From Psychroflexus salarius (GTDB taxonomy: Bacteria; Bacteroidota; Bacteroidia; Flavobacteriales; Flavobacteriaceae): DNA of 64,000 nucleotides. The stretch is from contig NZ_FQTW01000001.1 in NCBI RefSeq assembly GCF_900129035.1, positions 1-64,000 of the forward strand, given 5' to 3'. The notes below the pieces were generated by a model. The model was not told the DNA's origin. It saw nothing but the letters and a program-made list of their open reading frames with translations, and did no database searches. This document shows, in pieces, positions 21,308 through 21,727 of the stretch. Position numbers and translations under genes: made by a program. The first letter of the stretch is position 1. Each line of letters begins with the position of its first letter.

Positions 21308-21336
21308 GATATATAAGATTAAAGTTAAAATTGAAA

Positions 21337-21355
21337 TACTTGAGAAAGGCTCAAG
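21337..21355 (-). promoter_or_regulatory. Hairpin just before metY
   Basis: On the minus strand CTTGAG and CTCAAG pair around a five-base loop and are followed by a T-rich stretch (TATTTCAATTTTAAC). It lies about 30 bases before the metY ATG and may be an attenuator stem or a translation-controlling stem; the T-tract is too broken for a confident terminator. Confidence 0.4.
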
Positions 21356-21380
21356 TTCAGAATTGACTTAAGACCGTAAA

Positions 21381-21411
21381 ATGCGTTGCTAGATGGTTAT
21401 TAGCAACTCAT
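21381..21411 (-). terminator. Attenuator-like hairpin overlapping the leader peptide stop
   Basis: On the minus strand ATGAGTTGCTA pairs with TAGCAACGCAT (ten pairs and one mismatch) and is followed by TTTACGG. The 5' arm contains the last sense codons ATG AGT TGC and part of the stop of the leader ORF, so a ribosome there would block the stem. The U-run is short, so termination strength is uncertain. Confidence 0.5.
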
Positions 21412-21525
21412 GCGCATTCGCATGAAACTACAGTCTGCGAATGGTTTTAAAAATAGAATAATAGAAATATGATCAGTTGAAAGTACTGATAATAATCGGC
21501 ATTTGAGATTAAGAGTGTTTTTCAT
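21400..21525 (-). CDS. Met/Cys leader peptide of the metY operon (candidate)
   Basis: A 41-codon ORF starting ATG at 21523-21525, right after the riboswitch, and ending in the codons ATG CGA ATG CGC ATG AGT TGC TAA, that is MRMRMSC. Three alternating Met codons and a Cys codon at the very end, placed within two adjacent hairpins, are what a translational attenuator for sulfur amino acids would need. The rest of the peptide shows no known domain. A longer frame to 21636 would begin inside the riboswitch core and is not accepted. That it is translated is inference. Confidence 0.55.
   Translation of the reverse strand: MKNTLNLKCRLLSVLSTDHISIILFLKPFADCSFMRMRMSC
21415..21443 (-). promoter_or_regulatory. 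Leader hairpin formed by Met codons
   Basis: CATTCGCA and TGCGAATG pair perfectly (8 bp) around a 13-base loop. On the minus strand the 3' arm carries the codons ATG CGA ATG of the leader ORF. It lies directly before the attenuator-like hairpin at 21381-21411, so the two could compete or be melted together by a stalled ribosome. Confidence 0.5.
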
Positions 21526-21534
21526 CGCTAAACT

Positions 21535-21676
21535 TTTATATTTTTTGAATGCACTATTGCTTTCAAATCTGGAATTGGCACCGATTTTCCAATATTGAAA
21601 TACATCAATACTTATAGTGGGTTGCCAGAGGGTCATCGAGCCAGTCTCTCACCTCATTCTTTATAAAATTTGCGAT
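21535..21676 (-). promoter_or_regulatory. SAM-I riboswitch (S-box)
   Basis: The minus strand contains the S-box core: GAGGTGAGAGACTGGCTCGATGA, then CTCTGGCAACC, a variable P3 arm, and GGTGCCAATTCC followed by a P4 hairpin (TTTGAAAGCAATAGTGCATTCAAA). P1 forms between GAATG (near 21656) and CATTC (near 21547), extended by A/T pairs. The SAM-I class senses S-adenosylmethionine and turns off methionine synthesis genes. The metY and metX-hom genes downstream fit this. The expression platform is the region with the leader ORF and hairpins. Confidence 0.93.
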
Positions 21677-21694
21677 TACTCACAAATTGGGATG

Positions 21695-21727
21695 CAAATA
21701 TATTAACAAATAAAATAGAATTCCAAA
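21695..21727 (-). promoter_or_regulatory. Promoter of the riboswitch-metY-metX transcript
   Basis: On the minus strand TTTG (-33) and TATATTTG (-7) are separated by 21 bases, matching the Bacteroidota promoter consensus TTTG and TAnnTTTG. The expected start of the RNA is a few bases ahead of the riboswitch P1 stem. Confidence 0.65.

Follow-up and report, generated by a model that had tools for sequence, protein, structure and literature searches.

A SAM-I riboswitch followed by a methionine- and cysteine-codon leader upstream of metY in Psychroflexus salarius and other Bacteroidia

Attenuators of the trp and his type consist of a short ORF that carries the regulatory codons near its stop codon and precedes a gene of the pathway concerned. 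The Salmonella mgtA leader joins an Mg2+-responsive RNA to mgtL, an ORF with proline codons. A tandem of a SAM-I riboswitch and a T-box(Met) has been reported to precede metX and metY, with a logic of low SAM plus uncharged tRNA (PMC9481103), and the SAM-II riboswitch of Sinorhizobium metA comes with two AUGs in one frame that lead into the gene (PMC9373788). Among the uORFs associated with B12 riboswitches in M. tuberculosis, that of ppe2 runs into the start of its gene and acts mainly through reinitiation (PMC11260477). Leaders with Cys codons are known in Actinobacteria (PMC1262725), and for Flavobacterium psychrophilum there are hints that amino-acid biosynthesis operons are preceded by attenuating leader peptides (PMC9723704), a source whose main text does not contain the name metY.

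The locus studied here lies in a stretch of 64,000 nucleotides from Psychroflexus salarius (contig NZ_FQTW01000001.1, positions 1 to 64,000), which we call the window; its features are collected in Table 1. An earlier note on this DNA had claimed an S-box core at 21535-21676, and the RF00162 match bears this out: judged by its covariance-model score over the curated cut-off, the aptamer is classed as a SAM-I riboswitch. No further RF00162 match was obtained in the P. salarius genome at E <= 0.001, and a T-box is absent from the window's Rfam matches at the gathering threshold. The 41-codon ORF ending ATG CGA ATG CGC ATG AGT TGC TAA, also pointed out in the earlier note, is present as described; it starts 7 nt behind the aptamer, translates to MKNTLNLKCRLLSVLSTDHISIILFLKPFADCSFMRMRMSC followed by the stop, and stops 92 nt ahead of metY. 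Its frame is open further upstream, to an ATG at 21636 within the aptamer (78 codons), but because relatives start at the downstream position (an in-frame ATG further upstream occurs in only 6 of 58 leader loci) we prefer the start at 21525. A tail with at least four Met/Cys in the last 14 codons is rare by comparison: the 64-kb window has 173 other ORFs of 25-60 codons that begin with ATG, and 3 of these show it; this background set excludes the leader itself.

Table 1. Features of the metY leader region and the adjoining genes, in positions of the window.
Feature	Position	Strand	Basis
TTTG, candidate -33 promoter element	21724..21727	-	sequence
TATATTTG, candidate -7 box	21695..21702	-	sequence and consensus TAnnTTTG (PMC9723704)
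TCGC, possible P1 lengthening by pairing with GCGA 21528-21525 (including the A of the leader ATG)	21672..21675	-	sequence and duplex prediction; not significant across relatives
SAM-I riboswitch aptamer	21533..21669	-	RF00162, 59.1 bits, gathering 44.4
Leader ORF, 41 codons, Met/Cys tail FMRMRMSC and stop	21400..21525	-	sequence and conservation in relatives
Hairpin H0, 8-bp stem CATTCGCA 21443-21436 / TGCGAATG 21422-21415, first Met codons in 3' arm	21415..21443	-	sequence
Outer stem 21436-21428 / 21379-21371, enclosing hairpin 21424-21409 and hairpin A	21371..21436	-	prediction
Hairpin A, GTTGCTA 21407-21401 / TAGCAAC 21391-21385	21385..21407	-	prediction; stable fold here conserved in relatives
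Hairpin B, CTTAAGT 21372-21366 / ACTTGAG 21356-21350	21350..21372	-	prediction and sequence
Hairpin C, ACTTGAG 21356-21350 / CTCAAGT 21344-21338, then ATTTCAATTTT (poor T-run)	21338..21356	-	prediction and sequence
metY, O-acetylhomoserine aminocarboxypropyltransferase/cysteine synthase family	19994..21307	-	TIGR01326, 659.6 bits, cut-off 495.1
MetX-like domain fused to homoserine dehydrogenase, next gene of putative operon	17721..19982	-	TIGR01392 below cut-off, NF004976 above

The mgtA leader resembles this arrangement in pairing a signal-responsive leader with a codon-sensing ORF and differs in its signal and its codons, and it is not known to contain a SAM aptamer. Likewise, the trp and his attenuators and the Cys leaders of Actinobacteria (PMC1262725) have in common with it a short ORF that precedes a pathway gene and carries regulatory codons close to its stop, whereas here the ORF lies directly behind an aptamer, mixes Met and Cys codons and mostly comes without a canonical terminator/antiterminator pair. 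With the SAM-I/T-box(Met) tandem the locus has in common the genes and, in logic, the two inputs, but here an ORF containing Met and Cys codons would be the second sensor in place of a T-box RNA (PMC9481103). The M. tuberculosis B12 riboswitches likewise stand beside an upstream ORF, which is translated and alters downstream expression there and probably does so here as well (PMC11260477). A relay of the ppe2 type, with the uORF stop overlapping the gene start, is absent from the window, where the leader stop codon ends at 21400 and metY begins at 21307, and the present ORF differs further in carrying codons for the products of its own pathway. Sinorhizobium metA resembles the locus in having an AUG just past the aptamer, with a terminator further on there; a separate Met/Cys leader is not described in the portion of that source considered (PMC9373788). 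We found no description of a SAM riboswitch joined to a Met/Cys leader peptide in the portion of the open-licence PMC literature covered. Both modules are of known kinds, and it is their serial joining and its breadth that appear to be new.

Promoters of Bacteroidota are known to have a -33 element of the TTTG kind. Directly upstream of the aptamer we find a candidate promoter of this type, made of TTTG, a 21-nt spacer and TATATTTG; the -7 consensus TAnnTTTG sits at -12 to -5 (PMC9723704), and the candidate -7 box would place the transcript start at about 21690 on the minus strand. The metY product is O-acetylhomoserine sulfhydrylase, and the TIGR01326 family is annotated both as this and as cysteine synthase, so that by gene identity the leader precedes a pathway gene of the very amino acids encoded in its tail. 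By MetY, the closest named relative is Mesohalobacter halotolerans (86% identity). The 753-aa fusion protein encoded directly downstream has the MetX-like acyltransferase at residues 8-334 and the homoserine dehydrogenase at 349-664. We considered a physiological reason for the arrangement, namely that MetY is the only entry of sulfide, and found it unsupported: a CysE-like protein occurs at E < 1e-43 in 20 of 52 genomes, that of the window among them, with none over the curated cut-off, and MetY is therefore not always the sole route to Cys. Elsewhere in the window, a 5S rRNA at 1-87 is clipped by the window edge, and a rho gene (15655-17397, plus strand) encodes a Rho whose N-terminal part is followed by a long Ser/Lys/Gln-rich stretch and which has 580 aa, compared with 413-415 positions in the NCBIfam Rho models.

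The comparison covers 92 loci with a metY of the window type: 18 from the genus, two from elsewhere in the family, 69 from a search of the class and three on named contigs. Three duplicates were dropped (L051, L052 and L055, of L070, L073 and L159), and L057 (neither SAM-I nor leader), L058-L068 and the partial class hit G699 stand outside the set. A SAM-I aptamer lies upstream of metY in 67 of the 92, and the other 25 have no RF00162 match over the cut-off. Within the genus, 18 of 27 genomes contain a window-type metY (one on a cut contig), and in all 18 a short ORF begins with an ATG 1-13 nt behind the SAM-I aptamer and is rich in Met/Cys at its end, for example SMRMRMPMSCFSYMCA, AMMMSMYMRMRMQ or CYCCMRMCC. 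RF00162 has no match in eight of the nine remaining genomes, and in the ninth (G021) the match stands before a metH-type gene.

Leaders were called in the 67 SAM-I loci by a rule blind to content, which takes, between -5 and +25 nt relative to the end of the aptamer, the first ATG with an open frame of 15 codons or more. It yields an ORF in 65 loci, and 57 of these first-ATG ORFs have at least four Met/Cys in the last 14 codons. The tail averages 6.5 such residues, of which 4.3 are Cys and 2.2 Met; the other two frames average 1.2 and shuffled tails 1.0. The Met/Cys share is 46% of tail codons as opposed to 2.5% in the remainder of the same ORFs. Tails of this kind are present in 16 of 17 groups, comprising 13 of 14 families and the three named contigs, one of which is only just at the tail threshold. 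In 55 of 58 loci the distance from aptamer to leader start is +1 to +15 nt; the initiation context is A-rich, the second codon is Lys or Asn in 40 of 58, and the leader length ranges from 23 to 55 codons. Cys exceeds Met overall and mostly dominates outside the window's own family, where the tail averages 3.2 Met and 2.9 Cys. The pairing of SAM-I with a Met/Cys leader is thus not due to chance. In the comparison of metY leaders from relatives, as proposed in the earlier note, ORF and tail both recur across families. This lends strong support to the idea that a SAM-I riboswitch is combined with a leader sampling Met and Cys; the alternating Met-Arg pattern of the window is not conserved, only the Met/Cys content near the stop.

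What the two modules would do together is suggested in part by their spacing. With the leader within +1 to +15 nt of the aptamer there is almost no room for a separate terminator between them, so the simplest expression platform would be the translation start of the leader itself. We therefore favour, with a probability of roughly 0.6, a two-signal leader in which SAM controls translation of the ORF and the ribosome on the Met/Cys codons controls metY. The SAM-I plus leader architecture is well supported, and we infer the output step. When SAM is plentiful, the aptamer would close P1 and so keep ribosomes from starting on the leader, whose ATG in the window lies 7 nt beyond the end of the 3' strand of P1. 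At low SAM the leader, an element whose architecture is shown by conservation, would be translated up to its Met/Cys codons. If Met- and Cys-tRNA were charged, the ribosome would finish and leave, and the hairpin built largely from the codons would form together with those downstream and cut metY transcription; if they were uncharged, the ribosome would stay on the codons, mask the hairpin and allow metY to be transcribed. The net logic would be metY on when both SAM and Met/Cys charging are low, and low metY when SAM is high or when SAM is low and the tRNAs are charged. The brake on metY may be an intrinsic terminator, Rho or another step. The broader proposal, that across Bacteroidia an aptamer lacking an expression platform of its own decides on leader translation and the ribosome there on the codon-made hairpin, so that one ORF would read SAM and Met/Cys-tRNA charging as a coincidence, we put forward tentatively, at slightly less than even odds.

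The structure tests cover 58 loci, chosen for a leader with four or more Met/Cys in the last 18 codons; as this is a selection on content, the existence of leaders is to be read from the content-blind test alone. We considered an extension of P1 across the leader ATG as a conserved off-switch; it is visible in the window but is not better than shuffles over the set (n=58, mean z -0.28, p 0.15), even though it is stronger than at 32 SAM-I sites that have no such leader (mean z -0.28 vs +0.61, p 1e-4). The tight spacing of aptamer and leader is therefore kept as the main evidence for the first step.

Compared with shuffles, the region around the leader stop codon has greater folding stability (mean z -2.19 over 58 loci; p 3e-5 over 16 groups). 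The effect is less strong in the region that follows (mean z -1.64, groups p 0.018) and weaker in the flanks (mean z -0.65 and -0.55; per-locus p 0.007 and 0.013; groups p 0.051 and 0.56). A hairpin spanning the stop is present in 55 of 58 loci, and in the best such hairpin Met/Cys codons make up on average 61% of the 5' arm. A hairpin with a T-rich tail occurs around the stop in 19 of 58 loci against 5.0 in shuffles (at most 9), and in 12 against 0.8 at -10 kcal/mol; for the second region the counts are 6 against 2.9, and 3 against 0.3 at -12. Strong hairpins with a T-run are found in 14 of 58 loci and any such hairpin in 22; by the same criterion there is no canonical terminator behind the window leader (L069).

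Two hairpins containing Met codons had been described in the earlier note, and both exist in the window, with the Met codons from 21423, 21417 and 21411 inside or beside them. Hairpin A, whose 5' arm is the last Cys codon and the start of the stop codon, has a predicted energy of -7.5 kcal/mol and can be extended across 21419-21379 to -10.0. Pairing is kept in 97.7% of cells among ten genus members, and both sides are changed in 10 cells, a value reached by 0 of 500 shuffles; all 10 lie in the second hairpin, and the alignment of the leaders nearest to the window has no consensus fold. In these ten members the number of pairs changed on both sides (4 vs 2.0, reached by 27 of 500 shuffles) and that of further pair types (11 vs 11.8, reached by 460 of 500) are unremarkable.

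Leaders of this kind are also found in relatives where no riboswitch precedes them. One or two Met/Cys leaders occur in 11 of the 25 SAM-I-less window-type loci, as judged by a filter and by eye (L170, L185, L186, L187 and L193 passed the filter and were judged unconvincing), and SAM-I was not found in these 11 even at a relaxed threshold. Such leaders also precede metY in Christiangramia sediminis (L058) and in 5 of the best-scoring 26 more distant loci of the family (52-55% identity), with no RF00162 match upstream of metY in any of these six. From the leader-only loci we chose 11, with 20 leader-terminator units, for a clear terminator behind the leader; L147, L150, L151, L155, L177 and L189 have Met/Cys leaders and are not in this set. 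Nine of the 11 (L101, L102, L103, L134, L148, L157, L164, L173 and L058) have the order leader, terminator, leader, terminator, metY. The terminators are strong hairpins with T-runs and begin 18-38 nt past the stop codon, and pairing between the leader's 3' end and the 5' arm and loop of the terminator exceeds that in shuffles (mean z -2.65, p 2e-6, 20 units; individually p <= 0.045 in 16 of 20). By anatomy, the leaders of these selected relatives are textbook attenuators with Met and Cys codons.

One could therefore read the window too as a textbook trp-type attenuator, in which hairpin C terminates and hairpin B prevents C. Hairpins B and C have the strand 21356-21350 in common and are mutually exclusive; the fold prediction gives the outer stem and hairpin C (P about 0.9) when the whole leader is free, and hairpin B, with C falling to 0.03, when the RNA upstream of about stop-30 is masked. 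In addition, canonical terminators occur together with antiterminators (z -6.6 and -5.3) in two loci of the same genus, L084 and L086, which are clear exceptions among the SAM-I-linked leaders. Against this reading, hairpin C is not followed by a good T-run, the state predicted for a ribosome at the stop is the same as for a stalled one, and the choice between B and C is not seen by eye in aligned relatives. The aggregate tests on SAM-I-linked leaders are negative as well. A trp-like three-state switch is seen in 7 of 47 loci (L084, L135, L136, L140 and L141 have such profiles) against 4.45 in shuffles, antiterminator pairing is at chance level (n=46, mean z -0.29, p 0.85), and no coupling is seen between the masked part of the leader and pairing further downstream (n=58, mean z 0.20, p 0.59); the first two tests take those of the 58 loci with a hairpin 15-65 nt past the stop, the second also leaving out L056. 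With three tests at chance, general three-state switching is rejected for the SAM-I-linked set, and a textbook attenuator we consider unlikely for the window. The suggestion that a stalled ribosome opens an attenuator-like stem fits the selected leader-only relatives, and also L084 and L086; no switch is detectable in the SAM-I-linked set as a whole, and for the window the suggestion depends on the predicted B/C switch.

Rho-dependent attenuation is another form that the brake could take: an untranslated or released leader would expose a G-poor, C/T-rich stretch past the stop, which a stalled ribosome would shield. The composition at stop+5 to stop+39 (G 7-15%, C 19-27% in the 58 loci), the scarcity of canonical terminators and the rho gene in the window are consistent with it, and such a mechanism has been proposed for the Cys leaders of Actinobacteria (PMC1262725). 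The region from stop+65 to stop+89 is equally G-poor, however, and Rho would need no conserved hairpins, so we give this explanation a low probability.

An ordinary SAM-I riboswitch could also act on metY alone, the ORF being spurious. Leaders are indeed missing at some sites: the content-blind rule finds no tail in 8 of the 65 ORFs and in two further SAM-I loci, 9 of the 67 SAM-I sites of window-type metY have no good Met/Cys leader (L130, L132, L133, L144, L145, L154, L156, L184 and L191), and SAM-I sites before metH-type genes have no such leader (gene type checked for L006 and L027). A spurious ORF would nevertheless hardly show a tail that recurs over nearly all groups, in one frame only and at a narrow distance from the aptamer, which makes this account very improbable. 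A functional small Cys-rich protein acting in trans, which the many Cys in the tails of most relatives might bring to mind, is less credible still, given that the length varies so widely, that by eye only the composition of the tail and not the body is kept between families, and that the tail codons take part in a conserved hairpin.

If the two-signal leader is correct, a single ORF would serve many families of Bacteroidia both as the output of a riboswitch and as a sensor of tRNA charging, a form of two-signal RNA control. It would also explain why there are SAM-I aptamers lacking an adjacent terminator, and would extend leader-peptide control by Met and Cys to the Bacteroidota. The same gene found with SAM-I alone, with the leader alone or with both would offer a natural comparison.

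Two further observations come from loci outside the window. At L061:2250-2500, on a contig labelled as an Acidimicrobiia MAG, SAM-I and the leader MTKVRSSSAPMMCCCMPCSRVVSSL precede metY, which points either to a mislabelled bin or to spread beyond the Bacteroidota. Near two loci with Met/Cys leaders, SAM-II aptamers lie on the strand opposite to metY (L058:1527-1602 and L113:3676-3746).
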